From contig CM039509.1 in the NCBI GenBank assembly GCA_022432975.1, positions 8,525,075 through 8,589,074 on the forward strand: a DNA stretch of 64,000 bases, in the 5' to 3' direction. Positions within the stretch are counted from its first letter, which is position 1, and every line of letters starts with the position of its first letter. The position numbers and the translations under genes were made by a program. Positions 8,722 to 63,633 of the stretch are shown here, piece after piece. A model generated the notes under the pieces. The model searched no databases. It saw only the letters and a program-made list of their open reading frames with translations, and was not told the DNA's origin. Source of the DNA: Begonia masoniana (taxonomy: Eukaryota; Streptophyta; Magnoliopsida; Cucurbitales; Begoniaceae).

Positions 8722-8724
8722 AAA

Positions 8725-10664: not shown

Positions 10665-11014
10665 ATATATGTATGTATATATATACATACATGTATGTAT
10701 CTATATGTATCATACATATACATACATACATGTATGTATGTATATACATACATACATGACATACATACATACATACATACATGTATGTATGTATATACAT
10801 ACATACATACATACATACATACATACATGTATGTAGTGTATAGATATATAATGTATACATATATATATATACATACATACATGTATGTCTGATGTATGTA
10901 CATGTATGTAGTATTAGTAATATCGATACTACATGTATGTTACATGTATGTATGTATATACATACATACATACATACATACATGTATGTATGTATATACA
11001 TATATGTATATACA

Positions 11015-17205: not shown

Positions 17206-17208
17206 AAT

Positions 17209-19147
17209 TGTAACGCCCCAATTTAAAAATCCCCAAATTAAAACCCTAATTTTGAAAACCCTAGAATTTTCCCCAAATTGATTCTTGAAATCGAGCGTTA
17301 AATCAAAAATTTAAAATTTAAAACATATTAATTAAAAAACTTAAATATTACGGAAGCTTTGATAATTAATTTGTTTAAATATTGAAAACCACCGCATATT
17401 TAAAACATTTAATGAAACTTTATTTAATAATAAAATTCAACACAATGATTCAAATTCTCAAATTGAAATAAACTTTAAATATCTTTTGAAAGAAAATTAA
17501 AGCATACTAGTTTAAATCATTTCCCTCAAAATCATCAATATGATCTTCGTCTGTATGCTCGTTTGCCACTGGAGGATTCTCAATTGCAGCAATTTCTTCC
17601 TCAGACAAAAACTCACTACATCACAAGTTAAAACAAAAGGTGAGAAAACTCAGTAAGTGGAAATACGTGCAAAACTTTTACTTTTACTTTTACTTTTACC
17701 GAATCCTGTTAAGACTTAGCCATCTCATTGTCGTTCAAGCTTGGTCATCTTTTACTTTTAATTTTTAACGATCATGCTCACCATCTCACTGTCGTTCAGG
17801 CTTTTGCTATCACGTTAAAAACATATGCTCAAGCTCACCATCTCACTGTCGTTCAGGCTTTTGCTATCGCATTTCTTTTACTTTTTCATACACATGCAAA
17901 TAACCTACCCATTTTATCTTTTAAACTATTCTATGTCGATATTCTAACATACGTGCGCAATCATCGAAAACGTGTAATAAAAATAAAACAATGATAAAAT
18001 AATAAAAATAATATATATAGCTTGTGATGTAGGGCCGTAGCCAAAACTTTGTATTTCACTTACTTGGATTCCGAGCAATTAGCGTTTTAACGGGGGATTT
18101 TTCCAAAATTTCCAAATAATACCCTGCTCAAATCAAATCTTTGATTTTAAATTCCTACTTAATAAATCCAATTTCAAAGTAATTTGAGCAGAAGTTACTT
18201 ACGTTATAAACTTAGGTCGGCTCGGATTGTTCGGATCGTTTTGGGTCTAATCGGACGGCTCCTAAATTTATCCTGCCCAAACCGAATATCAATATTAAAT
18301 TCCCACTTGAATTATTCCAACTTTAAAAGGATTTGAGCAGAAATTCTTACCGTAAAAATCTTCGATCGGTTCGGTTAGAATCGGGTCGAAAATCGGGTCC
18401 GGTCCGGTCCGGGTGAACAGTACCGGGTCGGTCGTGAACAGTGCTCGGGTCGGTTGGGCTCACTGTTGGTTCGGTTTGGGTCAAAATAAGTGAACCAGTT
18501 CGGGTGGTTCGTTGCTGGTCTGAGTTGTTTAATTGAACCGGTTCAGTTTTTCCTTAAATTGAACCGCTGCTTCTCCTTCTTCGATTCTTCTGTCGATTTC
18601 TGCAGAGAGAGTGAGAGCCGAGAGTGAGGGAGAGAAACCGAGAGTTCGATAGAGGGAAAGAGTGAGACAGAGAGCATCGGAGGGGGAGACTTACTCCGAA
18701 GATGAGTTGTCGGTGGAGGCCGAGAGGCTTCGTCGGAGCTCGGCTGAGGGAATTTCGTCGCGTCAGAGGAGGCTAGCTGCGGTGGTCGGAGCTCGCTGCC
18801 TTGAAGACCGAGGTGAGTATTCTTCCTTTATGAAGAACTCGAGAGGGAGAGGAGAGAGCTGTGGGGTGAATAATCCAACACCCGAGCCCTCAATTTATAG
18901 GGGAAGGTTTGCCCCGCGCCCCTCCGTGAAATCCGAATCCGATCGGATTTTCCGAGCTGAATCTCAATCAGCTCGGATTTTCAGCAATTCCTTATTGTTC
19001 TCTCCTTTGTATCTGGACGTTTTTCCAGACTAAATGTAATTGGTTCAGCATCGGATTTCCAGCGAGAAATCCCACCGATTGCTGAAAATCTGATTATTTC
19101 CTGATTTGTTGCTTTGAAACTTGATTTTACTTCAGTTCTTGGACGGC
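17209..19147 (-). repeat. LTR of chromovirus B, truncated at the same point as in A
   Basis: Nearly identical to 8725-10664, including the break after CTTGGACGGCATACA. The module hairpin is at 17641-17652. Confidence 0.88.
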
Positions 19148-19588
19148 ATACATATATGTATGTATATATATACATACATGTATGTATCTATATGTATCAT
19201 ACATATACATACATACATGTATGTATGTATATACATACATACATGACATACATACATACATACATACATGTATGTATGTATATACATACATACATACATA
19301 CATACATACATACATGTATGTATGTATAGATATATAATGTATATACATATATATATATACATACATACATGTATGTATGTATGTATGTACATGTATGTAT
19401 GTATGTATGTATATACATACATACATGTATGTATGTATGTATGTATGTCATGTATGTATGTATATACATACATACATGTATGTATGTATATGTATGATAC
19501 ATATAGATACATACATATATGTATGTATATATATACATACATATATGTATGATACATATGTATATATATATATATTTATATACATATG

Positions 19589-29376: not shown

Positions 29377-31902
29377 TTTAAACTTTTTACCTGACGTTTG
29401 AGCGGAAATAAAACTTTAAAATCAGAATCGGGATTGAAACTAAAATCGTTGAAGTCTAAGTTGTTAAACCATTTAAATTAAACTTAAAACAATTTAAATA
29501 AAACCATTAAAATTAAATGAAAACAATCGGCAGAGGAGAAGGGGGCAAAAACGGCAAAAGCCGTGTAAAACATTGTGGCGATCGATCGCCCAAAACAGGC
29601 GATCGATCGCCAGAAGCGATCTTCGCATGGCGAACCATCGCCCCTTAGGCGATCGCTCGATTGCCTAGCGATCGCCTCCCAGGCGATCCGTGATCGCCGT
29701 GTAACCATCGAGGGGCAATCGATCGCCAGAAACCAGGCGATCGATCACCACACGCTCTGGAAATCTTCTAGAGCGTGGTTCCTCCTGGTAACCGATCGCC
29801 ACCTCCTGGCGATTGGTCGCCATCCACGCTGCCTCCTCACCTCTTCTTTCTCTTCTTCTCCTTTTCTTCATTTACTTTACTCTTTTCCTTCTCTTAATTC
29901 ATGCACTTAACGTAAATACCTATTTAAACTCAAAACACAACTAAAACACTTCACATTACACTTCATTTCATCGACCAAATAAGCGACTCAAACACGTTTA
30001 AAACATAACCTAGTTTCGTAAAAATAAACCGCGTGGTTCGGTTTAAAAACTGAATGATTCCCCTAATATCAAACATTTACAAAATACATTTTTGAAACGT
30101 TTTAAAACTCACAACGTAACTTACCCACTATACAGAACCAAACACCCAAAAATGTTCTATCTGTACGCTTTCTACTCAAAACATCTATAAATACCTACAT
30201 CCCCACCGGTCATGAAACGCCTTGACTGCGCCAACGCACTCCCGCGACCATCCTCCGTCAACCACATCACTCGTCAGGTGGAGGGATCTCGTCCTCACCT
30301 ATGTCGAAGTCACCTACACTATACAGACACCTATGAGATAAAAATCTCAGCAAGCTCTCGTAAATGTAAATGCATGCTGTGCATATGAATTCAGAAATCA
30401 TGCAGCATTTTCTTTATCTTTACTCTGTGGGTGTCACCGAGATCTCAGCCTTCTAACCAGAGAGAACACATCCAGCGGTCGGACTACTCTTTCCAGCTAG
30501 AAGAGGGGGGTACACGCTTACAACGCGTACAGCCGTGTCTGAGCCCCATCTCGCATGACCTATAACTGTATGAGTATGTGTTAAATGCGGTATTGTGACA
30601 CACCCCTTCGTGCCTACACAATAGATCAATAGCCCCTCTCCAGGCCGCATTACCGTTTTCTTTAAAACATCGTGCGAAAATTCATTTTCTATGTTCTTTT
30701 AAAACAAGTGATGCGTGAATAGTTCAATATGACATGAAGTAAACATACATGATTCGTACCATCGAGACAATAAAGCAATTAAAAACCTAACCTGTACAGA
30801 ACTAATCCTAACTACCCAACCAAAACAAATTTAACATATGCGTCACCAAAACTCCTCGAGACGACCTCGACGTACGGTGTAGGCCAATCAGCCAGAGAAG
30901 ATCACGAGAACTTACCTCGTGTCTGATGCAATCCAAGCTCCGTCCACGAGCGTTCACCTAGAGCAATTTCACCAAATTGTCATTAAAACGAGTTTAAACT
31001 ATTAAACGTCCAAATTTAACGAAACCTTAACTAAGGAAATTTCTTAAAGTTCCAACTAAATTAATCGAGGCATTTTCATCCTTCAAATAACGCTCAATTC
31101 CTCGAAATTACTATCAACGAGTTTTCCCCCAAAACTTGGAAATTGTTAAATCTCTAACATTCATCCTAAATCGATTAACTTTATCCAATAACGCTCAATA
31201 TGTTCATAATATTCGCAAATACGGTAGTGCTATTGATTTTGAACCCTAAATCGCATTTTTAACGAAACCTAAACGAAACCCTAACTATCAAACGCTTGTA
31301 AAATCGAAATACAACGTTCCAAAAGCATAGAATCACACCTAGGGTTACGAGAGGAGGAAGAAACGTGAAGAAAACGAGACAATCGGAGAGCTTGATCGCC
31401 GGAAATGGAGGACGTCGTGAAGGGGAAGGAGATCGCCGAAAGAGAGAGAAGAGGAAATAGGAGGGAAAATCGTGAAGTCTTTGAGGAGAGGAGAGAAAAT
31501 TATGTTTTTAATAAATTGGCTTGGCAAATTACCATTTTGCCCTTCTTTTGTTTTCTATTTGTTTCGTCCCTCGTTTCTTTAATTGACCGGCGATTCGGTT
31601 TCTCCAAATTTCCTTAATTTACCAATAACTCAAACTTATCATTTGGGATTTATTAAAACTGTCCGTTTGCAAATCAGACCACGTTTACTATTTTTACTAA
31701 AACGTCCTTTATATTACAAGAAACGTAATTTCTCGAAATATAACGTTATTACTCCGAAAAATCCCGTAAATTTCTTAAAATTTCTATTAATCGTTATGAT
31801 CGAAATGACGCTTTCTTTTCGTAAAACGGGTTTGATGTGACATATTTACCAAAAATATCATTTATATTAAAATAATAATAATCCGTACAGCCGGATATTA
31901 CA
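29377..31902 (-). repeat. Main part of family X solo LTR copy 1
   Basis: Resumes family X (GTTTGAGCGGAAATAAA matches 53131 onward). It holds GCGATCGATCGCC-type palindromes at 29577-29830 and the module: exon 3 acidic frame near 30267-30312, hairpin TGAGAT-AAAA-ATCTCA at 30334-30349, GTAAGT donor near 30913 and a CCTAG-GTGTG donor near 31340 (minus strand). Ends GGATATTACA. No protein domain. Confidence 0.75.
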
Positions 31903-33838: not shown

Positions 33839-35473
33839 TGTGAAACCCAGCATTTGTTTTGGAGGAGAAGAATGTAATTTTCTTTCTTCTCACATGCCAC
33901 GTATACAACCATTAACTTACCTTTAAAACCCTTATGAAAATGCTTCAGCATAAACGTTTTTACCTGCTGAGAGTGCCGTGCGCAGAGGAGCGAGAAGGAA
34001 TCGGCCGGCGACGATTTGGTTTCCGATTCCAACGATTTTTGTTTCAAAACACTCCTTGTCTTCTTCTCTTCAACCTTTGTAAAACAAATTGGAGGTTCGA
34101 CCCTGTGCTCGAAAATTGGTGAGTGATTTCCCCTTCATTCTATTGTTTTCTTCCTGCAGTTTTCAGTTGGATAATAATGACTGTTGGGTTATTTCCAAAA
34201 TTTGTTTGATTAAAAATCTTCGCTGGTTAAGTCTCTTGATTAAGTGTTGCTCTATTGTTAAATTATAGGACTTTAGCTCTCTGTATATTGTTAAATTATA
34301 GGATTTTAGCTCTCTTTACAGAGGAAGAAATTTTGGAGGACTCAAGATTTGTAACTGTGTTGGGGGTTTAATTAGAGAGTTGGAAATTTTAAACTTTTGG
34401 GGTAAGAACCCAAAACTTATATTTTGTTTCCCTTGTTCTTTTCGGTTGGAGAAATTTATGGATGCATTGTGACGACCCCAACCCGGTCAGGGCCGCCACG
34501 GACTATCCATGATGTAATCTTGACTTTAAACCCTCGTATCTTCACGTGCAAATTTTTTCATTTTTACTTAACACTCTAAAACCAACCTCAATCGACCCTA
34601 ATTAACCTAGCGTTAACTTAAACATGACGAGCATAAATTAGTTAACTTTTAAATCATTGAAACGAGATAAAAACCCTTTTTTGGAAAAATGTCGACTCAG
34701 TTTTTACGCCCTTAAAATCCTTTAAAATACATGCGGATCGCTCGTAAAATACGTTTAAAAAGTATCGGAAAAGGTCTGGTTAAAACGTGTTTTGAAAAGT
34801 CGAAATTTGAAAAAAAAAACGATTTGGGGACAAATGGGGCTCGCTGGGCGCCGCGCGCCCCCATGTGCCCGGCCGCGATCGATCGCGCCCCGGGCCTGAC
34901 CGATCGGGCCGATTCGGGCTTTCTTCATCCAAATACACCCCGGCCACGACCGATCGCTCCCCGGGCCCGAGCGATCGGCCCGGCTTGGGTCTTTCTCGCC
35001 CAAAAACACCTAAAAACACTCATTTTGACCCTTTTTGACTTTTCCCCATATTTCTTCCTATTTTCCCGAATCTAATACCTCCAAATCACTTGAAAGTTTA
35101 CCCACACATTCCCGACACTCTTGACTCTACCTCCCATAAAAATCTTAAACAAAAACCGACTTAAAACAGAGTGCAAAACATATCCAAAAACATATCTAAA
35201 ATTCACGAAAACTGACCGCGTGGATCGTTTTAAAACACGAGCATATCCTTACAATTTCAATACCTATAATCGTTAAATCAATCCAACACAATCCTCAACA
35301 TAATATTAAACTTAAGGGCGGAACCTCCTATAATATCATCAAAAGAAAACGTCTTTTAAGTCATTCTAAACAACACTATTTCGAGCCCACAACCATTATG
35401 TCATTTCCAAAATATCAACTCCACTAAACATCATAGCCAAAACACGTTTCGTCACCACAAAATACAATGGAGC

Positions 35474-37646
35474 TGTAACGCCCCGAGTTATCTAAACCCG
35501 GTTTGCTACTCAACACACTGAACCGAACCATGACGACTTGATACTAAATTTAAAAATATTTCACTCGACAATCAAAATTTAACATTTTCCAAAACTCGAT
35601 GTATTTTAAAACTTGCAGCGGAAATCAATCGAACATCAATGAAGTTAAATAATCTGTGAAAACATTTCAAAATAATTGTTGGGAGTGTTAAGAATAATGG
35701 GCCAAAAATATAAAGCTTTAAAAATGTGGAATACCCATGAAATTGCAGAAGTCAAACACATCTGCCGACGACAAAGTCAACACAAGGAGCAGAAATAGAA
35801 AATAGGAGGCCTCTACCGATGACAAACGACAAAACTTCGGTTATATCAACCGGTCAGAAAACGACAAACACTACCTACATCTTCCGATGACGTCAGCCGG
35901 AAGATATACAAACAGGACAAATCTCGGTAGACTGCATCTACCGATAGCTAGGCGACAAAACTTGCTACTTACATCTACCGATGACGTCAGCCGGGGGATT
36001 CCTTCCTCCAGCATCTGCCGATCGCTAGACGACAACTCGCAACTTATATCTACCGATGACGTCAGCCGGATGACTCCTTCATCCAACATCTGCCGATCGC
36101 TAGACGACAAAACTTACCACTTTCATCTACCGATGACGTCAGCCGGATGACTCCTTCATCCAACATCTGCCGATCGCTAGACGACAAAACTTACCACTTT
36201 CATCTACCGATGACGTCAGCCGGATGACTCCTTCATCCAACATCTGCCGATAGACTTCAGAACAGTAATTCTGCTGTATTCCAAGAAAGCTCTGACTATC
36301 AAAGGATTTAAGCATTTTACTAAGACCAATCAGAGACAGATCAAATCATTGCATCACTCAAATCCAGTAGAAAACAGTATTTTCAAAACCCAACAGAACA
36401 CTAATATCAAAGATTCTCAGAATGTATTCAAAGTTTTGAAAACACTACTATCATAAAATTTTCAGAAAAAGAAACATCTATACTGAACTAGTTACTCCCA
36501 ACTCAACACCTGCAGTCATGGATTAAACTGCCTCAACAGATGGCCAAACCGATGCCTGAAAATGCTCCTCCAACCAGCCTGGTCCTCTTATCGGTCGGTA
36601 AACACACCTTCAGTAACTTCTTCACCTACATCACAAACTCATCTATTAGCCTAATGCTAAGCAAGTAGAGCAATGAATGAAATGAATTAATGAAACAAAA
36701 TTTCCCTAAACATGCATTCTCTACTTTCTCATCTCAGTTGTATTCAAATTTGTTCTCTGTGGATCCCTCTGTACGATGGGAAAGTGGATCAGTCATTCCC
36801 CAAAGCATACATCCTCTGATCTCAATTAAGGAGCGGATTAATTCCCTTAACAGTTAACTGGTCTGATCCCCCTGTAGGATTGGGAAGTGGATCACTTTTC
36901 CCAAAACCTCAATCCTCTGTTCTCAATTAAGGGGCGGATTAATCCCCCTTAACAGTTGTTCTGATCATCATGCTCACATTTACCATGCGTTTCATGTAAA
37001 TTCATTTTCGTAATCTTTCAAAACATGATGCATGACAATTGGAAATAAACATACAAACATACATAAATCCTACTGTTTGTGATGTAGGCCCGAAGGCACA
37101 AACAAACTCTACTTACCTGGCTCCCTGGAAATCGCTCGGTTAAATGCTACTTCAGAAGCTCGCTCACCTAAAATCATAATAGTACATATATCAAACTTTC
37201 ACTAAACTTCACAGAATCAATACAGGAGTTTGAGGAACCAAATTTGAAACCCCACAACTCGGGTATTCTCAATAGTCGCTCAGCCCGAACCTACTCTAAA
37301 TCACAACATTCCTCGAAACTCCTCACATTGTACTCCCTCAGCTATCTAACTACTAAAATCGCAAGAAAACAAGGAGGGCTTACCTAGGTTGAAGGAGAAT
37401 CGGGCAGGAGAATCGCCTAGAGATTTCTGCCGTTCGAGCTGAAGACCGAAAGGGAAAGAAAATGAGTAGTTGTGGCGGCTACTCTAAACTTTTTGCCTTA
37501 AATACCTTATCCACTTTCAAATTTGCCAATTACCCTTACTTACTCATTCTTCAACCTAACCTACATTATACTAAAATTTCATTCATCGATTATACTTAAT
37601 AGATTTATCTGTTATTTTAAATTTTTAATTAAAGTCGGGTGTTACA
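35474..37646 (-). mobile_element. Solo LTR, family V (inside W)
   Basis: A 2173-bp insertion with ends TGTAACGCCCC and CGGGTGTTACA and the duplication GGAGC at 35469-35473 and 37647-37651. On the minus strand: donor CCTAG-GTAAGC near 37390, middle exon 37167-37117, hairpin TTAGC-ATTAG-GCTAA at 36660-36646, acceptor GATGTAG, and acidic exon 36625-36588 (GEEVTEGVFTDR). The region past the module carries a tandem array. Confidence 0.87.
35870..36250. repeat. 77-bp tandem array with five TGACGTCA sites
   Basis: The last units are near-perfect 77-bp repeats and the earlier ones are degenerate. Each carries the palindrome TGACGTCA (35888, 35982, 36057, 36134 and 36211), a consensus for TGA/CRE-type bZIP factors, and most carry CATCTGCCGATCGCTAG. 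Confidence 0.85.
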
Positions 37647-40239
37647 GGAGCACACCCACGGATTCCCTTGCCTAGCCAAAACACGTTCCGTCACCACGAG
37701 CACCACCATCAACCATCTACACGTGATCATCAGGAGGGGGTTCCTCACCTTCGTTCTCGTCACCTACATCATACGATAAACACATTAAGCCTAATGCTTA
37801 GTAAGGAGGTGTACTAAAACATTAAAATACACAATGCATGGTCTTTCAAAATACGTTCGTTTTTCATTCATTTACTTTACATAACATATACATATATATC
37901 ATTAGGCATGAGTAGGCACAGGCACACCCCGTCTACCCTGTAGACCAAATACTTGCCCTGAGTTGCCATTAACGTATCATTGTGCCTTGAGTTGCCATTA
38001 GCGTGCCCTGTGCCCTACTCATCCTTCATCATTACTTGAAAACGTGCATGCAATAACATTTCATTAAACCTTAAATGAGAAAACATGATGCATGAAAAAG
38101 TGCTCCAAACAATCATCAATCATTTCTTAACGTACATAAACGAGCCTAACACATAAACGAACCTATCCGACCACAAATAAGAAACACCCTAGGCTACCCG
38201 ACTACTTAGAACCCAAAATCGTGAAAACATCATTAAGACATTAATTCCTAACATCGACAAAATGTAGGGCTTTAAGAGCCAGAAATCTAACACCACTTAC
38301 CTGGAGTCCTAGCTATGTCGAGCACCGTCCTTTGAGAGCTTGGGTTACCTAAGGCATTTTCATAACACGTTATTAGTATCGACTCTATATTATAAAAAAT
38401 CAAAACTAAACGAAACCCCGAGCTAAGACGATTTTCCCAAAAACTCTTATTCACTTCTTTTGGGCATTTCGTCGAGCACAATGCGCTCACCAATAACTCC
38501 ATTAATGGTGTTTTCTTCAAACTCAACCACCCAAAATTGACCAAAAATCCAACCTATATCCATCGATAACCAAAATTTCACCTAACTATCATCAATAGTC
38601 GTAAATACACCGTCAAATGGCACTAATTTAAACATCATAACGATTTCTAACCAAAATCAGAGATTTCCAACAAAACCCTAAACCGAAATCCACCTAAAAA
38701 CCACAACTAAACAAGCCCAAAGCATAAAACTTACCTAGATTGTCGATTTGGAGAAGAAAACTCGAAGAGAAACTCGCCAAAAATCGGAACTTGAGTTATT
38801 GAGGGAGGGAGAGGAGAAGGAAATCGTGAGGAGAGCTTCACGTGGAGGAGGAGAGAAATGAGAAGAAAAGGAGGCGTTTTAGGTTTTATAAAAATTTGAC
38901 TTCCTAATTTACCATTTTGCCCTTAGTTCAATTCCTTTAATTCGTTCACTATTCCTCTATCAGTTTGGTTTCCCAAAACTCCCTTATTCCTCCAAATATT
39001 CCAACTTATTCTTAGGATTCTAACGAGACTAACCGTTCGCAAATTGGACTTTGTTTACTATTTTTATGAATTAAAACACTGTAGGGCTAAAAACGGAACT
39101 CTAACGTTACACTATGGATATGGGTTTCTAAAAATTTACTTATTCGTCTAAAAATCCCCATAAATCCCTAGGACACTAATAACACCTCTTGCTCGTTAGA
39201 CGGACCTATATTTCTTATTTACGAAAATACCCTTGGAGCGGAAACCCGAAAAACTCGGGTGTTACATGCATAGTACATTTGGATGGTAAAGAGTGGTTAA
39301 TGAGGAGATTTTAACCCAAAGTTCAATTTCTATTTTCTTAAGAACCAACTTGCTAAATTAAAAGTTTGGACTTTTAGATCATTGATTATTGAGACTTGGA
39401 ATTATCGGATTCTGACATGTTGTAAGTGCACTTGAGATAGGGGTTTATTTTATTTTCGGTTAAGTATTATTTTTAATTCATTAATTAAATTCATTTATCT
39501 AGCATAAATTGTTTATTAAATTTTATGCTACTATTTCTTTCACACATTTATCAACTACATTATCTTATCATTGATAAAAAAAATGGTGTGGTTTTAACCA
39601 GAAGTAATAGGATAGCTGAAGAGTCGTGTCCTTGGGCGCAAAACCCTAAACTTGATCAGGGTAATTATGGCATGCGACTGCCTGATGTCGATGTTTTGGC
39701 CTATGGCCCAGTGTGCTCGGAGTCCATGAGAGACTCCATTTTCACCGAACATCTATTTAAATTGCATAACTGCATTTTTATTAAATCTATGCATAATATT
39801 ATATGACTGCTGGAAATAAACTCTACCCCTATTGAGTTTAGTCGACTCACCCCAAATGACTACTATTTTTCAGGATTCAGTAAAGGAGAATTTGATTATC
39901 GGCACAGGAACAATCACCTTGTAGAAATTTCCTATTTTAATAAATTTTTTTTGAGGATATATCTTATATTTTTAAGGTAAGACACTACTGTGGATGTGTA
40001 AGTTCTATTGTAAGCTTTGTTCTATTTAATTTACCATGTTACTTTATTGGATATATGTTATTACATCATCTGATGTCACTTGTTGGACCTGTTTATTTAT
40101 CTGTCCAGGCCTTGACTTATCTTAATTGGTTAATATTCTGCTGCGTTTGGTGAAATTTGGTGTTAAGGGTCGGACGATCTAGTCCTTTTCGGGCCGGGTC
40201 GTTCCCCATTCTGTTTCGGGTCCCCTTTGGGTCTTGACA

Positions 40240-46269: not shown

Positions 46270-49009
46270 TGTGACGACCCTAACACTGTACCCAATTTTC
46301 CGTACTATTTTTTTTTATACTTAATACTTTAAACCTTTTAATCGTATCGGAAGTAAAACCGTTAAATCTATCTTTTAAAACCATTTAAAAAAACTTAAAC
46401 CAAATTATAAAACAATTAAAATAAAAGAAAACATGTCTCAGGGCAAAAGGGGAAGTTCCCCTTGAAAATGAAGGGCGATCGATCGCCCCTCCCAGTGGCG
46501 ATCGATCGCCCATCTATAGAATTTAGGGGCGATCAATCGCCCCTCATAGTGGCGATTGATCGCCCCATTATAAATGGGGGGCGATCGAACGCCCCTCGTA
46601 TGGGCGATCGATCGCCCCACTCTCTGGAAAAATTCCAGAGAGTGGCGATCGTCTGCCGATCAATGGTGATCGATCGGCAGGTCCTCTGGAATTTTCATTC
46701 CAGAGGCCACTTCCTCCTGATTTTACTTTCTCCCTTGCACACTTAACAAATTCTTCGTTCAATCCTTCAATAAACATACTAAACATCCTAACATAAACTC
46801 GTTCATAAGCTCACTTATTCTTCCTTTCGTCAACCACCAAATAAACGATTTAAAGCATACCCTAGAACGTATTTGAAAACATAGTAGAGTTTCATAAAAA
46901 CGAACTGCATGGTTTGGTTTAAAAACTAAGCGTTTCCTCCTGTTAAAAATCACCAAGCAATTCATCAACCAATTAAAATAGCGGTTTAACAAAACGTTTT
47001 ATAAAAACATGTTTATTAAAACATTGAATATCAAAATATAAACCTATCAACTATCCAGAACCAAACACCCTAAAATGTCTCTATACAACCATCAGCCCGA
47101 CAATTCCCAAAAACCCTCAAAACACCTAACCATGAGTCCCAAGGGTCAAAATATGCCTCGACTGCGCCAGCGCACTCCCGCAATCATCCTCCATCAACTG
47201 CATCACTCCTCAGGTGGAGGAATATCGTTCTCACCTATGTCGAAGTCACCTACACCATACAGACACACTATGAGATAAAAATCTCAGTAAGCTCTACGTA
47301 AATGCAATGCGTACTGTGCATATGAGTTCGTAAATCATGCCTCGACTGCGCCAGCGCACTCCCGCAATCATCCTCCGTCAACTGCATCACTCCTCAGGTG
47401 GAGGGATCTCGTCCTCACCTATGTCGAAGTCACCTACACTATACAGACACACTATGAGATAAAAATCTCAGTAAGCTCTACGTAAATGCAATGCGTGCTA
47501 TGCATATGAGTTCGTAAATCATGCATCATCTTCATTATCTTTACTCTAGTTGTCACCGAGATCTCAACCCCCTAACCAGAGATGGCACATCCAGCGGTCG
47601 GACTACCTTTTCCAGCTAGAGGAGGGGGGTATACGCTTACAACACGTACAGCCGTGCCTGAGCCCCATCTCGCATGACCTATAACTGTATGAGTACATAT
47701 TAGATGCGGTATTGTGACAGACCCCTTCGTGCCTACACAATAGATCAATAGCCCCTCTCCAGGCCGCATCGCCATTTTCTTTAAAACATTATGCAGAAAT
47801 TCATTTTCTATCCATAATTTAAAACCGTGATGCATAAACAGTTACGTACTTAAAGTAAAGAAACAACATATATACCATCAAGATAATAAAAGCTATTAAA
47901 AGCATATCCTATCTAACTACCCAACCAAAACAATTTAAAACCAAAAGCGTCACCAAAATTTCTCGAGACGACCTCGATGTACGGTGTAGGCCAATCGGCC
48001 AGAGAAGATCACGAGAACTTACCTCGTGTCCGTTGCAATCCAAGCTCCGTCCACGAGCGTTGTTTACCTAAGGCAATTTCACAATTTGTCATTAAAACGA
48101 GTTTAAACTATTAAACGTCCAAATTTAACGAAACCTTAACTAAGGAAATTCCTTAAAGTTCTAACTTAGCTCTTTGAAACATTTTATCGAGCACCTTGAG
48201 CTCGTTATTCATACAACTTCATTAATGAGATTTCTAAGTTTTTTTTTTTTCAACAACCCAAAATTCACCTTAACGTCCATTAATTCGCCCAACTACTTCC
48301 AATGTCATTTAATACGTTCACTAAGGTTATAAATAGGGCAACTCTAGCTATTTCTAAGATTACTCAACTATTTCGCGAAAAACCCTAAACAAATCATAAT
48401 CGTTTAAACTTCGTAAAAATCGAAATAAACTTTCCTAAAACCTTAGAATCATACCTAGGGTTGCGAGAGGAGGAAGAAACATGAAGGATCGAGACGATCG
48501 GAAAGGAAAACGGAGGTCGGCGTGAGAAATCGCCGGAGGAAGAAAATGACGCCGTTGAAGCTTCTGGAGAACGATTTTTCAGAAATGAAAAATCGATAAA
48601 GGCATTTGCCTTTAATAAAAATTGAATGTTTCAAATGACTATTTTGCCCTTCAACTGATTTTCTATTTGTTTCGTCTTTCATTTCGTTAATTAACTAACG
48701 ATTCGGTCTCTCCAAATTCTCTTATTTCACCATTAAGTCCAACTCATTACTAGGGTTCTATTAAAACTGTCCGTTTGCAATTTGGACCTTATTTACTATT
48801 TTTACCAAAGTATTCTTTATATTACGATAAATGTAATTTTCGTAAAATTAGCGTTACGACTCCTAAAATTCCCGAAATTATCTTAAAATTTATATTAATT
48901 ATTAGGATCGTAATAATGCTTTCTGTTCGCGAAACGGACCTGATTTGACATATTTACAAAAATACTATCATATATTAAAATATTAATTTCCGTACCGCTG
49001 GGTATTACA
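46270..49009 (-). mobile_element. Solo LTR, family X copy 2
   Basis: 2740 bp, ends TGTGACGACCCTAA and GGGTATTACA, target duplication TAAAT (46265-46269 and 49010-49014). GATCGATC palindromes lie at 46468-46690. It has an internal tandem duplication (about 47155-47334 and 47335-47514) that doubles the hairpin (47271-47286 and 47455-47470) and the acidic exon. Donor, middle exon and acceptor sites are as in copy 4. No proteins. Confidence 0.88.
47155..47514. repeat. 180-bp tandem duplication of the LTR module
   Basis: Two adjacent near-identical copies starting GCCTCGACTGCGCCAGCGCA, each including acceptor, acidic exon (minus strand) and hairpin. Confidence 0.85.
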
Positions 49010-49070: not shown

Positions 49071-50023
49071 TGTAACACTCGGATTTACGGGATTTTTGTA
49101 ATATATGTGAATAATGGTATTTTTGTAATTATGTCGAATTAAGTCAGTTTTGTGAAAAGAAAGCGTTGTTACGATCGTAATAATTAATATGGATTTTAAG
49201 AAAATTTTGGGAATTTTAGGAGTTTAACGCTAATTTTACGAGAATTACGTTTCTCGTAATATAATAAACGTTGTGGTAAAAATAGTAAACGAGGTCCGAT
49301 TTGCGAACGGACAGTTTTAATAAAGCCCTGATAATAAGTAGGGTTTATTGGCGAAATAAGAAAATTTGGAGAAACCGAATCGTCGGTTAATTAACGAAAC
49401 AAAAGACGAATCAAATAGAAAATCAAAGGAAGGGCAAAATGGTAATTTGCCAAGTAACAATTTAATTAAAATCACAAGTTTTCTTCTCCAGCAACACTCC
49501 GCGACTTTTCTTCTCTGTGATTTTCCTCCGCGGCGATTTTCTCCTTCTCCTCTCACGGCGTTCTCCATTCCGACGACCAACGCTCTCCGATCGACCTCCG
49601 ATTCTTCACGTTTTCTTTTCCAATCCCGACCCTATATACGATTCTAAGGTTTTAGGAAGGTTTATTTCGATTTTTACAGAGTTTAAACGATTAGGGTTTC
49701 GTTTAGGGTTTTGCGAAAAACGTGATTTAGGGTTTGAAATCGATAGATTTACCGTATTTGTGAATATAATGGACGTGTTGAGCGTTATTGGACGAAGTTA
49801 ACCTATTTAAGACAAATGTTAGGGATTTATGAATTTTCAGATTTTTGAAAAAATTCGTTAATGGTGATTTCGAGGTATCGAGCGTTAATTGTTTGTAAAA
49901 AAATGCCTCGATTAGTTAAGTTAGAATTTTAGAAATAAGGATTTCGTTAATTTGGACGTTAATGGTTCAAATGCGTTTTAACGATAACTATTGCGAATTT
50001 GCTTAGGTGAACAACGCTCGTGG

Positions 50024-50694
50024 ATGGAGCTTGAAGTTCAACGCGCACGAGGTAAGTTCTCGTGACTTACTATGGCCAATAGGCCTACACCGTATATCGA
50101 AGTCGCATCGAGGGTTATTGTGGAATTGTTTGTTTAAACGCTTTAGTTGGGTAGTTAGGATTAGTTTTTTTATAGGATATGCTTTTAATTGCTTTTATTG
50201 TCTCGATGGTACGTATGATGTATGTTTACTTTAAGCACGTAATTGTCCATGCATCACGGTTTTCAATTATGCATAAAAAATAAATTTCCGCACTATGTTT
50301 TAAAGAAAATGGCGATGTGACCCGAAAGGGGGCTATTGACCTATTGTGAAGGCTGAGAAAGGCCGGTCACAATACCGCATCTAATAAGAACCCATGTATG
50401 TTTATGGTCATGCGAGGTGGGGCTCAAGTATGGTTGTACGTATGTAAGCATGTACCCCCTTCCACTAGGTGGAAAGGGTTGTCCAACCGTCGGATGTGGC
50501 CTCTCCATTTACCGGGTTGAGATCTCGGTGACAACCTATGTAATTATAAGAAAATGTTGCATGATTTATGAACTCATACGCACAACATGCACTTGCATTT
50601 ACAAAACTTGCTGAGCCTTTAGCTCATAGATTGTCTGTATGGTGTAGGTGATCTTGACATAGGTGAGGACGAGATCCCTCCTCCCGAGGAATGA
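50024..50694 (+). CDS. Predicted spliced 24-residue acidic micro-ORF in family X LTR
   Basis: ATG at 50024 opens nine codons (MELEVQRAR) to a GAG-GTAAGT donor at 50051/50052. A 596-base intron ends at GTGTAG (50647). The second part completes Gly in phase 1 and reads DLDIGEDEIPPPEE to TGA at 50692-50694. The same exon in other X copies reads DFDIGEDEIPPPDE, DFDIGENDIPPPEE and DYEAGEDDVPPPDG, so changes are conservative while flanks drift. Only this copy has ATG; the others have ACG at that codon, so translation start is uncertain and a longer upstream-exon frame is possible. Predicted, not proven. Confidence 0.4.
50612..50625 (+). other. Module hairpin, family X copy 3
   Basis: TGAGC-CTTT-AGCTCA type hairpin preceded by CTTGC, about 22 bases before the acceptor. 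Its arms differ from those of other families in a compensating way. Confidence 0.6.
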
Positions 50695-51637
50695 TGCAGT
50701 TGAAGTAGGATGGCCCGTGGGAGTGTGCTGGGCAGTCGATGCGCCTTTTGACCAGTGGGGATGGACGTAAGTATTTTGGGGATACGATAGTTAGATCATA
50801 GGAGAAATCGTATAGATTGACCATATTAGGATGCTTGGGATCTGGTTAGTTGATAGGTTTATGTTTTATGTTTTGAAAACCTATTTTATAAACTGTTTTG
50901 AAAAGTATTTTATCGATGATATACTGGAACTGCTGGATGATTTATATTATAGGGATACGTTCGATTTTTAAATGGATCCACGCAGTTTGTTTTCGTGAAA
51001 ATATATTTCATGTTAAATACGTTTTGAGTCGGTTTGAGTGAGGTTATGGGAGATGTACGAGTATTGGGCAATTTTATGTTGAAACGTATGGTTGTGATGT
51101 AGGTAGAATTGGGTTGATGAAATTTGTAAAGTTGTGTGCTAGGTGTATGTGTATGCAGAGAAAAGAAAGAAAGAAGTGAAGAAAAGAAAAAAGAGGAAGA
51201 GGCAGAGAACCTACCAATCGATCGCCATCGATCGGCAGGGTGATATCCGCTCTCTGGATTTTCCAGAGAGCGGGGCGATCGATCGCCCATATGTGGGGCG
51301 ATTGATTGCCCCTTATTTGTAATTGGGCGATCGATCGCCACAATGAGGGGCGATCGATCGCCCCTCAATTTTGCAAATGGGCGATCGATCGCCCCTCAAT
51401 TTTATGGGACAATTGTCCCTTTTGTCCATGCTTTTGGCCGATGGATTTATTTATTCTATGGTTTTAATTTTATTGTTTTGTAAATTGTTTTAGTGGTTTT
51501 ATTTAAATGGTTTCTAAATAGTTTTCAAACGATTTTACGATTTAGTCTACGATTTAAATTCCGCTCAAAAGTTACGAAATTTATAAAAAAATTTGTACGA
51601 GAAATTAAGGGCATAGTGTTAGGGTCGCTACACTCGC

Positions 51638-53040: not shown

Positions 53041-55174
53041 TGTGACGACCCTAAAACTGTACCCATTTTTCCCGTAATATATATTTTTTTTATACCTACT
53101 TATTTATACTTAAGCTTTAACCTAAACGTTCGAGCGGAAATTAAACTTTAAAATCGAAATTGGAACCGAAATTGTTATAGTCGTTTAGAAAACCATTTAA
53201 AACAAATCTTAAAACAATTTATAAAACAATTTAAAACTGTTAAAAGAAAACTTAATAAAAGTTTAAAACAATCGAAGCAGTGAAAACCAACAAAAACAAG
53301 AGCAGAAACGGGCAATCGCCCAAAAATAAAGCGGCGATCGCGGGTTTTGCCAGCGATTGCCTGGGTGAAGCGATCACAGATCGCGGCGACAACACGAGGG
53401 GCAATCGATCGCCCATTTCGAGCGATCGATCGCCACTCGCTCTGGAAATTTATTTCCAGAGCGCTCGGCGATTCGCCCAGCGATCGCCTAAACATAATGG
53501 GCGATCGATCACCCATTTCGGGCGATCGATCGCCAATCGCTCTGGAAATTTCTTTCCAGAGCGCTTGGCTTCCCCCCTTTTCTTTCCTCTTTCCTTTTCT
53601 TTTTCCTGATTCCCTGCACACACATCTAACTCAACTTCTTTAACACATTTTCACTTACATCAATACACTTCACAATTCCTTTAATAAATTTCATCCAAAA
53701 CAACGACTCAAAACACGTTTTAAAACATAACCTAATTTCATAAAAACAAACCGCGTGGATATGTTTAAAAACTGAACATTTCCTTAATACCCAACATTTA
53801 CAAAATATATTTCCAAAACGTTTAAAAACTCAAAACATAACCTATCCACTATCCAAAGCCAAACATCATAAAATGTTTCTAACTGTACAATAATTCATAA
53901 CCAACCCAATTCGCCCAAAAACCTCAAAATACCTAACCGTTACCCCCACGGGTCAACATATGCGTTGACTGCTCATGCACACCACCGCAACCGTTCTTCT
54001 TCAACCATCTTGTCCATCGGGTGGAGGAACGTCGTCCTCACCTGCCTCGTAATCACCTACACCATACAGACACACTATGAGATAAAAATCTCAGCAAGTT
54101 CCGTAAATGCAATGCATGCTGTGCGTATGAATTTCAGAAATCATGCAATATTTTCTTATCATTACGTCACAAACAGAATGTTACCGAGGTCTCAGCCTAT
54201 TAGATAGATAGGACACATCCCGCGGTCGGACTGCCCTCTTCACCTACCGGGGGGTGTACACGCTAGTACCTATAACAGCCGTGCCTGAGCCCCACCTCGC
54301 CTAACAAGATAACAGATTACATGGATTCATTACATTCGTTCATTTCATTTTCTTAAACACGTGCAGAAATTTGTTTTCATGCTATTTTAAAATACGTGAT
54401 GCATGAACAGTTATAGGCATAAAATAAACAAACATCATACATACCATCAAGACTATAAAAAGCATAATCTATAAAAGAACTAACCCTATCTACCCAACCA
54501 AAGCATATAAACAAACAACTCTTCAGAGATCCTCGACGCGACATCGACATACGGTGTAGGCCACTTGGCCTAGTAAGTCACGAGAACTTACCTCGTGCGC
54601 GCTGAACTTCGAGCTCCGTCTAAGAGCATCGTTTGTCTAAGGCAAAACACAACAATTGTCGTTAAAACAAGATTTAAACCGTTAAACGTTCAAATTTAAC
54701 GAAACCTTAACTAAGGAAATTTTTCCTAAAAATCTAACTTGACTCTTTGAGACATTTTATCGAGCAATTCGTGCTCGTGGATTTCTAAACTCCATTGACG
54801 GAAATTTCCCAAACCTCAAGTATCCGTTTTTCAACCTAAACGCCGCATACACTCTAGATTTCGTCCAATAACGTTTAATACGTTCAATATACTCACTAAT
54901 ACGTCAAACCTATAAATTTCTAACTTTAAACTACGTTTTTCACAAAACCTAAACGAAACCCTAACCGCTAAACTCCGTGAAAACCGGACTATAACGCTCC
55001 AAAAGCATATAATCATACCTAGGGTTGAGTTTGGGGAAGAAAACGTGAAGAACGAAGGACGAACGGAGGAGGAATGAACGTCGGAAATGGGGAATCGCCG
55101 TGAAGCTTCGTCGGAGGAATGAAATCGCAGGGGAGAGGAGAAAATGGCGTGGAGAAGAAGAAAGACATGTGTTT
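53041..55174 (-). mobile_element. Family X LTR copy 4, interrupted on the right
   Basis: Begins TGTGACGACCCTAAAACTG inside the fold-back and runs to 55174, where family Z sequence starts; its last few hundred bases are not in the window. GATCGATC palindromes 53300-53560. Minus-strand module: donor CCTAG-GTATGA at 55019/55018, middle exon 54636-54592 (TELEVQRAR), hairpin TGAGAT-TTTT-ATCTCA at 54093-54078, acceptor GTGTAG, acidic exon 54056-54001 (GDYEAGEDDVPPPDG). Confidence 0.82.
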
Positions 55175-57001
55175 TGTAACACCCGACATTTTGGCCATGT
55201 AATAATCTATTGAATTATTGTATGGATTTAAATTGCCATAAATACAATAACTATTTTATTGTAAATTTTGGAGCATTTAGTGTGGGGAGAACCAAACTAA
55301 TGTGTAACTAAACTAAACACTAAGTTTAAAATGCATGGAAGGGTAAATCGTGGAGAAATTAAGGTTGGTGGGAGATAGCTAATGGTTGAGTGACATCTGG
55401 CAACTTGTTGAAGAAGCTAAGTTCCTCCTTCTACGTGAAACCCTCTTCATTTCACTTCTCTGCTCTCTCTCCATTCTCTTCTCGGCATTCTCTCTTCCAG
55501 TCGACAATCAGCCATCGAAGCTACTTCGATCTCCTCGGCTCCTTTCTGTTTTTCTACTAGGGTAAGCATCTTTTAAATGCTAACAAGTTTGGACAAGTTT
55601 TAAGTGAGTTTTGGTTGGAGTGAAGGATTGTGATACTTTGGTAAAACTCACTGTTTTTGGATGAAAACACACGGATTTGTTTTCTAAGGGTTTGAATGAG
55701 TTGGAACAAATTCTTCTAAATTATTTGTTAGCATTTGCAGCTTGTTTATTTTCTGAACGTGCATGTACAGGTTCAAGCATTTCCGAGACGTTCAGGACTA
55801 TCAACTCTGCAGCAACAGGTAAGTTCATATCCGTAGGCTGGCCCTTAAGGCCCTACATCTCGGAGGTACTAGGTTTTACATTCTGTTGGCTGGTTTCGGG
55901 TAGAAGGGTTAGAGTTAAGTTCTGTGGTTTCTGTTGTTTTATCTTCTTGTTCTCTGCTGTATCAACTGTAAGCACTGTAAATGTCCATGCATATACGATT
56001 TTCTGAAAGATCATGCAAAACTGTTTTCTGTACACGGTTTTGAAGTTAAGCAAGATAAAATCTGACTGAAATGTACCGGTTAAGTGCGAGACGGGGACTG
56101 GCCTCCTGATCTGTTTCTGTACTGTACTGTATTACTGTTTGTGCCTGATAGTGCACCCACTGTTCTCCAGTTCCCCTATAAGCCCCACTTATATCCCTCT
56201 GCCACTAAAACGTAATGTTCTATACTGTCACTGTATTTCTGAAAACCGCATGCATAGCATTTTGCATCACCACATATTTGTTATGTTCTTACTGAGTTTT
56301 AGACTCATACGTGAACTCCCTGATGTAGGTACTGAGCCTGAAAATGAGGACTTTATGTCTCAGTTTGATGAATAGGTGGCTGGTGGTTTGAGCTCTTGGG
56401 GGTGGTTGCTGAAGCTAGACAAAAATTCTGTCCTGAGGTTTAAATTTTTAAAGCATAGTCTATATCTGTAAAGTTTTCTGAAAATTCTGGCTTTGTTGTA
56501 AAAACTCTGTAAAAACTTCCGTTTTGGGAAAGTCAACAAATATATGTTAGGTTCTGTACTGATCCTCAGATTTTAAAACAATGTACAGATTTTGATGTCT
56601 AAGTTTTAAAAACTACTGTATTTGACAGTTGAATTTAGGTTCTGAATATTCTGGAATTGTTTGGGATATTATTTGTTAGCTTGTGTATGGATGACTTCGG
56701 GTTTTAGAGTTATCCATGCCGTCTGTTTTCTTGAAAATCCTGTCGTGTTCCTTTAAACATGTGTTCAAGTTATGTTTTTAAATCAGTCTCTGAAGTTTGA
56801 AGTTTTTATGCCTTCTGTTGTGCTCGAGAACCACGTTTTGAATTGGTATGAGAATCTGAGTCTTTCATGTTTTCTGTTTTTCTGCTCTCTGTTGGTAAGT
56901 CTTCCTGTTAAAAGCTGTCAAACCTTGTCTTTAAAACTATGTCTTCCGATTACATCCACCTGTGAACTCAATTCTGTTTGTGGTTCACATCCACCGGTTA
57001 T
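55175..57001 (+). mobile_element. Family Z LTR copy 1, interrupted on the right
   Basis: Starts TGTAACACCCGACATTTTGG inside family X copy 4 and is the reverse-oriented relative of the solo LTR at 61764-63633. It is cut at 57001 by the LARD. Sense plus: pyrimidine-rich leader 55430-55550, donor CTAGGGTAAGC near 55560, middle exon 55771-55818, donor CAG-GTAAGT, hairpin TGAGT-TTTAG-ACTCA at 56293-56306, acceptor GATGTAG 56322-56328, acidic exon 56329-56375 (GTEPENEDFMSQFDE). Confidence 0.8.
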
Positions 57002-58406
57002 TGTAGGATCGAGATTGTCTAAGAGGGGGTGAATTAGACCTTTTTAATTTCTAAATATCTCTTAAGCTAACAGCAAGCAAACAATTAGTAAAAGTAAAAA
57101 GAGAGAGAAAGAAAAAACCAACACAGAAGTTTTTACGTGGTTCGGCTCAGCCTAGCCTACATCCACGCTTCAAGGTTCACCCCTTGAAGATCCTTAACCT
57201 TCTCCTCGAGAATAATCAGATCGGAATTCCGGGCTCCGATCAACTGCCTTTACAATACATGATTATACTTTGCGGGCGATAATCCACAGCCTTTACAGAT
57301 TTTGAATAAGTAAAAATATATGTCACAGTCTAAACTCTCTCACGGAATAAATCTCAAGTTTTGAATCTGAGAGGAGAGTAGATAGAGTTACAGAGTATGA
57401 ATGATTTCGCAAGTTAGGGCTTAGTAATTCAAATTGCAAAAGTTGTATCTTTGTGCTCTAACCTCGGCTTAAATACTCTGTCTTCAGAATCGGCTTGACT
57501 TCAATGCTCCTTATCCAATAATAGAAACCTTGTTACCGTTGGAGCAGCTTTCGTACAATTTCAGGTAGCCGTTGCCGTCTGTAGTTGCAAGTCGTCGTCG
57601 CCATTAAAGATTTTGAGTTAATGCTGAAAACGACGTCACTGTAGCTTCGCGGCTATTTTAAATTCTAGCGGAAGATCACCGGATGAAGAAGCTTTAAACA
57701 ATCGGCAGGTGAAGCTTGAAAGTTATCGGCATGTGAAGCTTTAACACTGTCGGTATGTGTAGCTTGAAATGTTATCGGCAGATGCACCTTAAGATTCTAT
57801 CGGCAGAAGTATCTTGAAAGCCCATCGGCAGAAGCATCTTGAAAGGCCATCGGCAGGAGCAAGTCTTGAGCTTCATCGGCATGAGCAGCTTGAGCTTCAT
57901 CGGCAGATGTAACTTAAACTTCATCGGCATGAGCAATTTGAGCTTCATCGGCAGATGTAACTTAAACTTCATCGGCATGAGCAACTTGAGCTTCATCGGC
58001 AGATGTAACTTAAACTTCATCGGCATGAGCAATTTGAGCTTCATCGGCAGATGTAACTTAAACTTCATCGGCATGAGCAACTTGAGCTTCATCGGCAGAT
58101 GTAACTTAAACTTCATCGGCATGAGCAATTTGAGCTTCATCGGCAGATGTAACTTAAACTTCATCTGTATGAGCAAGTCTTGAGCTTCATCAGCCAAAAC
58201 ACGTCTTGTACTCTATCGGCAGATGCCTTGTACACTCAACCAATATTATTAGACACTAAAATACCATTTTCAAGGGTATTTCCAAAGGATTAAAAATCAA
58301 AGGCATAATTCAATAATCTCATTTTATAAACATGATCAAATTACATATTTATCATTAAATACATCATCAAAAACAAGTTTAGACTTAAAACCCATTTAAG
58401 TCAACA
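57002..58406 (-). repeat. 3' LTR of the LARD-like element
   Basis: Contains the sequence GTGGTTCGGCTCAGCC common in plant LTRs with a spliced leader, and toward its end (sense-strand 5' part) ATCGGCA repeats from 57690 onward. The plus-strand start includes GTCTAAGAGGGGGTGAATTA, often seen at ends of plant LTR elements. Confidence 0.7.
57690..58190. repeat. 24/48-bp tandem array in the LARD LTR
   Basis: From about 57889 to 58165 a 48-bp unit (two diverged 24-bp halves, cores CTTCATCGGCAGATGTAACT and CTTCATCGGCATGAGCAA) repeats five to six times almost perfectly. Looser 24-bp versions extend left to 57690. Translated frames (MKFKLHLP/MKLKLLMP) are by-products. Confidence 0.88.
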
Positions 58407-61763: not shown

Positions 61764-63633
61764 TGTGACGGCCCAAAACCGGACCCGATCGGGATCCAAG
61801 AACCGAGCCGTCACTCCGGGACATTTACAGAAAACGGGGACAACTATATTTTTTTTTTCGACTTTTTAAAACTCACGGACATTTAAAAAGGATGACATAA
61901 AATAAAGTAAAAGTGAAATAAATAAACATAAACTGTAAATCATACAGTGGAAGACTTACAGTAGATGACAAGGGTGGATGACAGGGGTGGATGACAGAAT
62001 TGACTGGGGCGGATGACTGGGGCGGATGACTGGGGTTGGATGACTGAATTGACTTTGACTGGGGCCGATGACTGGGGCGGATGACTGGGGGTGGATGACA
62101 GAATTGACTTTGACTGGGGCGGATGACTGGGGCGGATGACTGAATTGACTTTGACTGGGGCGGATGACTGGGGCGGATGACTAAGGCATATAACTGGGCG
62201 GATGACTGAATTGACTTTGACTGGGGCGGATGACTGAATTGACTGGGGCGGATGACTAAGGCATATAACTGGGCGGATGACTAAGGCATATAACTAGGCG
62301 GATGACTGAATTGACTTTGACTGGGGCAGATGACAGAATTGACTGGGGCGGATGACTAAGGCATATAACTGGGCGGATGACTAAGGCATATAACTGGGCG
62401 GATGACTAAATTTAACAGGATGACATATATACAGAAAACATAAGAACAGAAGGCACGAAACTTCAAATTTTACTAAACAAAATTTACTAAAAACCCGATT
62501 CAAAACATAGTTTTAAAAAAACATACTTGACAACATGACAGAGATTCGAGAAAACAAACTGCATGGATAGCTCTAAAACTCGAGACAATCCATGCACACA
62601 CTAACAGAGAAAACTCAAGGCAGTTCCAGAATATTTCAAAATATACATTCAACTGTCAAACAGAAGTTTTAAAGAAAAACATCAACACAGATTTTATACC
62701 TCGTTTTGAAGATCCCAAAACTTTTACAGAACTTGACATACACTTCAAACGTTTTAAAACCCCAAAACAACTTGTACAAAACTTGACATAACTTTACATA
62801 AAACACATTCTCACAGGAATGACATTTGTCTGACTGCAGCAACCATCCCGTGAGCTCCTCCCGCCAACTACATCAACTCATCAGTTTGAGGTTCAAGCTT
62901 CTCATCTGGAGGATCCGTACCTACAACAGGGAGTTCAACTATGAGCCTAGAGCTCAGCAAGAACATACAATGCAGAGTGATGAACGTGCTATGCATGAAT
63001 CTTTTTCAAATACGTGAACATTAACCTAGTACCTTCGTATTGTAGGGCCTTAAGGGCCAAACCTATACGTATGAACTTACCTGTGGTCCGAAATGCAGCA
63101 AACTTGATCGCACGAGCACTGTGGTTCACGAACCTATAGCATGCATAAACGGACATTAACCCTAAACATCACGAAACTAGCAAATAAATAAACTAAAAAT
63201 CGTTTTCTATCTAAGATGATTACCTTAGACCGAAAAGCAGGAGGAAAATCAGAGAAGGAAGAAACTCCTTGCGTTGGTTTTCCTTAACCGAAAGAGAGAA
63301 GCAGAGAGGAAAATGAGAGAGAGCAGAGAGGGAAATGTCTCACGTAGGAGGAAGAGAAGGAAATGGGATACATGGCTTGACTTCTTCCACAAGTTTGCCA
63401 AGTGTCAATCATCCATTTGATTTCTCCCACCAACCTTAATTTCTTCCTAATTTGCCCTTCCATTAGTTTTTATCTAAAACATTATTTAGTTAATCGATTC
63501 GGTCTCACGAATCACCCTCGTTCGATTAAACACATCAACAATTTTATTAAAAACAATCATTGCATTAATATCGGAGAAATTCCGCTTACATATTCGGGGA
63601 ATTATTACATAGGCAAAAATGCCGGGTGTTACA
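61764..63633 (-). mobile_element. Solo LTR, family Z copy 2
   Basis: 1870 bp, ends TGTGACGGCCC and CGGGTGTTACA, target duplication CCTTT (61759-61763 and 63634-63638). Minus-strand module: donor CTAAG-GTAATC near 63227, middle exon 63133-63081 ending KFAAFRTT, donor CAG-GTAAGT, hairpin TGAGC-TCTAG-GCTCA at 62956-62942, acceptor GTTGTAG, acidic exon 62920-62868 (GTDPPDEKLEPQTDELM). Confidence 0.88.
61970..62405. repeat. GGATGACTGGGGC tandem array
   Basis: Interleaved units of about 13 bases (GGATGACTGGGGC), longer ones with GAATTGACTTTGACT, and ones with TAAGGCATATAACT, all around a GGATGACT core. It sits in the 3' third of the LTR in sense direction, as the palindromes of families X and V do. 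Confidence 0.88.

Follow-up and report, generated by a model that had tools for sequence, protein, structure and literature searches.

Long LTRs make up a large part of many plant genomes, and to our knowledge no function is generally accepted for most of their sequence outside the promoter. A 64,000-nt stretch of Begonia masoniana DNA (contig CM039509.1; hereafter the window) raises the question of whether part of such an LTR is a split gene. An earlier note, made from the letters alone, had proposed that LTR transcripts of this stretch are spliced and may encode a small acidic, Pro-rich protein, conserved in four copies of one LTR family and in a second family. The best reading of the present analysis, which we hold with belief and doubt in about equal measure, is a spliceable LTR module whose phase-1 acidic exon 3 is selected as codons. 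The family names X, W, N, V and T used below are labels of this analysis.

Four copies of family X and their predicted exon layout

The LTR in question, copy A of family X, lies at 49071..51632 on the plus strand. In agreement with its earlier placement, it is a complete solo LTR, bounded by TG..CA and by perfect CTCGC duplications (TSD) on both sides (49066-49070 and 51633-51637). Its predicted exon 2 (50007..50051, 45 nt) is followed by a GTAAGT donor, which together with an intronic hairpin, GGCC-AATA-GGCC, and the motif TACA occupies 50052..50089. The 3′ end of the intron (50607..50647) consists of CTTGC, the hairpin TGAGC-CTTTA-GCTCA and a GTGTAG acceptor. Exon 3 then starts at 50648 with the acidic frame G|DLDIGEDEIPPPEE*, the peptide spanning 50650-50691 and the stop codon ending at 50694.

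Searching the window with copy A by BLAST returned three more X copies, all on the minus strand, and X copies are ~70-79% identical to each other in the aligned pieces. Copy B (46270..49009) is a solo LTR with the TSD ATTTA, exon 2 at 48067-48023 and exon 3 from 47433. A 184-bp tandem duplication (47149-47524) doubles its acceptor and exon 3, the duplicated exon 3 starting at 47249, so that copy B carries two exon-3 copies, DFDIGEDEIPPPEE and DFDIGENDIPPPEE (the latter from 47247 down). In copy C (29440..31902, 3′ end provisional), exon 2 (30957-30916) measures 42 nt, 3 nt less than in the other X copies, and exon 3 (30313-30267) encodes DFDIGEDEIPPPDE, with the stop ending at 30267. Copy D (53041..55174) has lost its 5′ end at 55175, where the LTR of family V copy V1 begins; its exon 2 (54636-54592) contains an in-frame TAG, and its exon 3 (54056-54001) encodes DYEAGEDDVPPPDGQDG, with the stop ending at 54001. 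An exon-1 donor, CTAG|GT, is present in copies B, C and D and absent from copy A. Tandem GGCGATCGATCGCC-type palindromes occur in the 3′ part of X LTRs, at 51272-51394 and 46466-46617.

The architecture described for family X in the earlier note is borne out: a CACGAG|GTAAGT donor, a GTGTAG|GTGA acceptor and a phase-1 join are present in all four copies, with introns of 596 (A), 589 (B), 602 (C) and 535 nt (D). Some of its details hold for part of the family only. The middle-exon peptide, given as TELEVQRAR or MELEVQRAR, is of this type in copies A and D, but copy B reads TELGLQRTR and copy C TELGLHQTR. Likewise, the methionine of exon 2 has an ATG in copy A (50024) alone; the codon is ACG in the other three copies, with the TAG of copy D immediately upstream of it. 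The statement that the flanks drift proved wrong on the upstream side, where conservation in the X alignment peaks in a 45-nt window beginning at 50607, in the intron end. Exon 3 ranks below it, at 375 of 1187 windows.

A module shared by five LTR families

Family W is represented by a solo LTR on the minus strand (34468..39266, TSD ATGCA) with exon 2 at 38348-38301 and exon 3 at 37763-37717, encoding DENEGEEPPPDDHV. The acidic W peptide that had been reported is thus present, but the junction 37117/36625, also ascribed to W, belongs to a second solo LTR nested within and interrupting it. This LTR, of family N (35474..37646, minus strand, TSD GCTCC), has exon 2 at 37167-37117 and exon 3 at 36625-36588; its peptide, EEVTEGVFTDR, is devoid of PPP. 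Family V, which lies outside the earlier finding, turned up when the window was scanned with the donor pattern described below. Its copy V1 (55175..57017, plus strand, with 57017 as a provisional 3′ end) has exon 2 at 55771-55818 and exon 3 at 56329-56375 (TEPENEDFMSQFDE), and its copy V2, a solo LTR (61764..63633, minus strand, TSD AAAGG), has exon 2 at 63133-63081 and exon 3 at 62920-62868 (TDPPDEKLEPQTDELM). Identical 5-bp TSDs together with TG..CA ends were found in all five solo LTRs tested, namely A (CTCGC), B (ATTTA), W (ATGCA), N (GCTCC) and V2 (AAAGG); copies C, D and V1, each with one end lost or provisional, were left out of this test. No internal gag-pol region adjoining the X, W, N or V LTRs was found in the window.

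The fifth family, T, comes with its element. T has three LTR copies in the window, all on the minus strand, and carries Retrotrans_gag, Ty3_capsid, Integrase_H2C2 and SH3_Tf2-1 domains, which place it with Ty3/gypsy elements. Its reading frames are broken. TGGTATCAGAGC follows the LTR and is presumably a tRNA-Met primer site; the lineage may be that of Tekay-type chromoviruses. No Chromo domain was detected at E 1e-3 in T at 4049-5347. The T gag has five relatives in the protein database, four of them from Diospyros lotus, and the best-scoring one is 40% identical. A search for further copies of the element via gag and integrase in viral contigs, together with a genome-contig search, confirmed none. 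T lies in two tandem units of ~8.5 kb (4142-12660 and 12646-21207) that share 97% identity; in both of them an AT-rich microsatellite adjoins an LTR.

The order of features in the T LTR is the same as in X, W and N. In the 5′ LTR (8724..10665), a stretch from 10380 to 9580 ends at the donor, an intron extends over 9579-9134, and exon 3 (9133-9024) encodes EFLSEEEIAAIENPPVANEHTDEDHIDDFEGNDLN, placing the acidic frame upstream of gag. In the second copy (T1, 1924..3872), exon 3 lies at 2333-2224; in the third (T3, 17207..19152), the exon 3 region lies at 17616-17507 and the acceptor is short of one G. A single AUG (10193, in a possible small intron) occurs in the 801 nt between the presumed start and the donor at 9580; the 446-nt intron that follows contains 14. 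The T leader (8519..8638, minus strand) contains another donor, CAGCAA|GTAAGT, whose last exon base is 8638, and a candidate acceptor, TTGTGATGTAG|ACT ATG, which shares the GTGATGTAG sequence and lies 3 nt upstream of the gag AUG (8519). A splice from 9580 to 8522 would make gag the first AUG after 10193 and join the AUG-poor leader directly to gag, and joining 9580 to 9133 would include the acidic frame.

An exon 3 with an acidic peptide is accordingly seen in LTRs of five families: X (four copies), W, N, V (two copies) and T. The stretch is strongly acidic when read in one frame, and in no other. The module around it, and its sharing between the families, are what the sequences show. Behind the GTAAGT donor, a hairpin of 3-5 bp and TACA at +31 to +37 occur at 11 of 11 sites. 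The corresponding donor-hairpin-TACA pattern matches the window 11 times, always at an LTR exon-2 donor, whereas 100 Markov sequences averaged 0.01 matches; since the pattern was devised with X, W, N and T already in view, family V is its sole independent find. Upstream of the acceptor, CTTRC and a 4-6 bp hairpin are present at 12 of 12 sites, the hairpin lying 20-25 nt before the acceptor. Its stems differ on both sides between families (TGAGC/GCTCA, TAAGC/GCTTA, TTAGC/GCTAA and TGAG/CTCA). In a MAFFT alignment, 88% of the cells of this hairpin are paired versus 22-54% with a slid partner; four cells have changed on both sides, and the covariation score was reached by none of 500 shuffles, while two other measures were ordinary (reached by 71 and 114 of 500). 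For the donor block RNAalifold predicted no base pair, and the donor hairpin therefore rests on inspection.

Models of the conserved blocks, R1 and R2, match 12 and 11 LTR sites, as is expected by construction for their members; the next match of R1 has an E of 2.4 and R2 has none elsewhere. When one family was left out at a time, the 3′ block refound W (4.6e-6), N (1.9e-5), T (0.006), V1 (0.01) and V2 (0.13). With family X left out, it refound copies A (1.6e-5) and D (0.007); copies B (0.27) and C (0.26) scored no better than the best non-LTR match of that run (0.21). The 5′ block refound W, N, T, V1 and V2 (E over the two blocks 4.6e-6 to 0.13) and did not refind X.

Between families, resemblance is largely confined to these blocks: at E 1e-5, BLAST with copy A matched W in two short pieces only and gave no match to N, V or T. 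This bears on the reading that the peptides are mere remnants of one ancestral LTR, shared by ancestry and free of selection. The ~70-79% identity among X copies, with exon 3 of average conservation, would fit such a history; yet between families, where only short blocks are alike, acidity, phase and stop persist, and we regard ancestry as a very unlikely explanation.

By an approximate splice-site scoring matrix, the donors are strong (X 10.7, W and N 11.8, T 8.2) and the exon-3 acceptors only fair (X and N 7.2; W, T and V2 6.3-6.4; V1 5.1). By the same matrix, the exon-2 acceptors of X_A (4.4) and W (3.5) are poor and the acceptor before the T gag scores 5.4. Within these LTRs, certain unrelated AG sites outscore these acceptors. 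Transcription starts were assumed, TATA-like motifs being seen only in D, W, N and T. The sample consists of the copies within one 64-kb window and, because the families share ancestry in this block, the family counts are not fully independent. Taken as they stand, the sequences make a conserved intron in the LTRs of five families likely.

Exon 3, exon 2 and the start codon

The strongest sign of codon selection in exon 3 is the phase lock of its GA dinucleotides. Across X_B, W, N, T, V1 and V2, these fall into codon phases 43:2:5, compared with 20.3 +/- 3.4 in phase in stop-free dinucleotide shuffles, the maximum of 3000 being 32. Without X, 36 of 42 remain in phase. The 48 nt after the stop give 5:7:9; the lock ends at the stop codon. 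For N alone, the phase is not significant (P 0.097). Acidity singles out the same sites: among the 145 AG|GT sites of the window that are followed by a phase-1 ORF of 11-40 codons, the LTR sites, 11 in number, occupy all but one of the 12 highest acidity ranks; the exception lies inside exon 3 of X_D, and the remaining sites have acidic fractions of 0.28 or less. T3 is missing from this set because its acceptor lost a G.

Within family X, 10 of 16 parsimony changes in exon 3 fall at codon position 3 (p 0.016, with ((B,C),(A,D)) assumed as the tree), a bias that 38 of 1014 overlapping windows equal in some phase. A dN/dS-type comparison, which the earlier note had suggested as a check on peptide constraint, gave ratios for X exon 3 from 0.05 (A-B) to 0.89 (A-D), based on few changes. 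A search for relatives of the peptides in the protein database (11 and 23 candidates) gave none at E 10 or better. Taken as a whole, the observation is beyond chance, chiefly by cross-family evidence new to this analysis. It is moderately likely that exon 3 is translated as an acidic peptide.

Exon 2 behaves differently. Changes are spread over its codon positions as 5:5:6, with no bias, and its GA dinucleotides over the phases as 8:4:11, with no lock; its nucleotide count is divisible by three in X, W, N and V1 and not in V2 (53 nt) or T (58 nt). The proposed constraint on a peptide is supported for exon 3, which is phase-locked, acidic and closed by its stop across families, but not for exon 2, where there is no codon signal.

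Nor is there a general start codon. In X_C, X_D, W, N, T and V2, the spliced frame lacks an opening AUG; V2 has an in-frame AUG only as its last codon and V1 only inside exon 3. The in-frame ATG of X_A lies in exon 2 and that of X_B in exon 1, the other copies having ACG at these positions. Stops in T, V1 and X_D would force any start into exon 2. An in-frame near-cognate ACG is found in exon 2 of X, W, T and V1, and none in exon 2 of N and V2. AUGs are in fact scarce upstream of the donor: exons 1 and 2 together contain one versus 8.4 expected (P 0.0005) when each family is entered with one row (X_C, W, N, T) and V with two (V1, V2), exon 1 being taken as a fixed 120 nt and T as its whole 801-nt leader. 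All nine rows give 4 versus 9.9 expected (P 0.0135). The shortage comes mostly from T (P 0.015 for T alone), AUGs are not enriched in the V1 and V2 introns, and with exon 3 added the depletion is weak (P 0.022 with one row per family, 0.06 with all rows). With neither an in-frame AUG nor codon constraint in every exon, the whole split gene as a conserved protein, as it had been conceived, is not supported, and a plain AUG-started split gene was rejected because no AUG opens the spliced frame in most copies.

Might the peptide instead be read without splicing, from an AUG upstream of the supposed acceptor? An in-frame AUG opens such a frame in four of 12 rows (V1, V2, W and X_C). In V1 (56278-56375) and V2 (62971-62868), an AUG-started frame, MFLLSxRLI..., crosses the acceptor and continues into the acidic peptide, and W has a shorter read-through frame, MCLSYDV.... 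In the other eight rows (X_A, X_B twice, X_D, N and T three times), a stop within 12 codons shuts the unspliced frame a little upstream of the acceptor, and that frame has no AUG. An unspliced small ORF was rejected as a general reading since it is closed in these rows, and we consider it highly improbable, slightly more so than shared ancestry.

A missing AUG and a silent exon 2 are also what would be expected if the acidity of exon 3 were a by-product. The LTR would then provide a spliced non-coding leader, and a purine-rich splicing enhancer with a TGAGGA-like core would open exon 3 and make it GA-rich. The GA-rich core sits at a similar place in exon 3 across families, and the intron end is better conserved than exon 3, both in keeping with such an enhancer. 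An enhancer, however, has no need for one GA codon phase over 11-35 codons, and with the shared core removed the phases are still 32:2:4, the lock stopping at the stop codon. This explanation appears unlikely, if still worth keeping in mind.

A further way to dispense with an AUG would be to use exon 3 of the 3′ LTR as a 3′-terminal exon, joined to a gag-pol donor or to a read-in transcript, to which it would add an acidic tail; the LTR itself would need no start. Such an arrangement would account for the coding signal in exon 3 but not exon 2 as well as for the missing AUG, and splicing at the end of Gag is on record for BARE1 (PMC3735527). Against it, the phase-1 donors of T that have a long upstream open frame are weak (7.0-7.4, by the approximate matrix), the T frames are broken and X, W, N and V are without an internal part here. 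We rate it as improbable.

Possible roles, known systems and neighbouring features

Returning to the module with a codon-selected exon 3, we infer that RNA is spliced at these sites and that exon 3 is translated. The presumed transcribed part of the LTR would comprise an AUG-poor leader, the GTAAGT donor, the small hairpin and TACA, followed by an intron of 0.16-0.6 kb with its second hairpin 20-25 nt upstream of an xTGTAG acceptor; exon 3 would then open an acidic, mostly proline-bearing phase-1 frame of 11-35 codons. Speculatively, translation might start at a near-cognate codon of exon 2 (ACG; ATG in copy A), and the product might be either a micropeptide or an upstream frame whose acidic, proline-bearing nascent chain tunes translation.

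The shared intron and phase-locked acidic frame would give this part of the LTR a concrete, testable role, and the module suggests a route to the gag AUG through a 1.9-kb leader. It is further predicted that a solo LTR may remain the source of a short spliced RNA with the peptide, which annotation would miss because it is without an AUG.

A more elaborate proposal, in our view improbable, is that an old spliced non-AUG upstream frame persists in a group of plant Ty3-type LTRs, that ribosomes are slowed or made to abort by its acidic, proline-bearing nascent chain, that the leader thereby sets Gag translation against packaging of the RNA, and that the two intron hairpins control the splice. In yeast and human-factor systems, nascent chains rich in D/E early on abort translation, according to a study in which Arabidopsis displays no proteome bias (PMC9718836); because of the latter, such an effect in plants is possible rather than established.

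The MMTV superantigen is LTR-encoded, by a large AUG-started frame of an animal retrovirus; it resembles the present case in having its reading frame inside the LTR and differs in size and in its AUG start. Further parallels come from plants. For Diaspora, a soybean Ty3-gypsy element, five donors were predicted within its long LTR, along with two acceptors around the gag start codon, much like T, but the predictions are of medium confidence and its lineage is tRNA-Asp-primed (PMC1142308). In barley, BARE1 keeps separate RNA pools for translation and replication and has an alternatively spliced intron, and it illustrates how an element with an RNA intermediate can retain an intron; in contrast to the LTR intron considered here, that of BARE1, 104 nt long, is located where gag ends, and Gag is the only product of the spliced RNA (PMC3735527). 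Nanopore data from triticale likewise contain introns in GAG RNAs (PMC7765848).

That a plant solo LTR can join in a splice, as proposed here, is exemplified by rice MIKKI with its BAJIE solo LTR. MIKKI differs in being one domesticated locus that acts as a microRNA decoy, and the accessible part of its report mentions no LTR-wide peptide (PMC5599236). The noncanonical ACG start of the plant GGP uORF, which regulates its gene, is comparable to the candidate ACG in LTR exon 2, except that GGP is a host gene and that the LTR start and any regulation by it are putative (PMC12371167). An acidic LTR exon was described in none of the matches listed in the open-access literature.

The window also holds several other features. 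An endogenous caulimovirus-like insert (20951-29206) has long frames with a coat domain, protease, RT and RNase H, and it contains a 939-bp duplication (23317-24255 and 28275-29213). Two 5S rRNA-like copies lie 462 bp apart at 45451-46025; the Rfam search gave two 5S rRNA matches and nothing else. Between 59465 and 61301, a 17-bp unit is repeated in 108 near-perfect copies, with long open frames on both strands, and a fragment of a POT/PTR-type transporter gene is located at 40605-41123.
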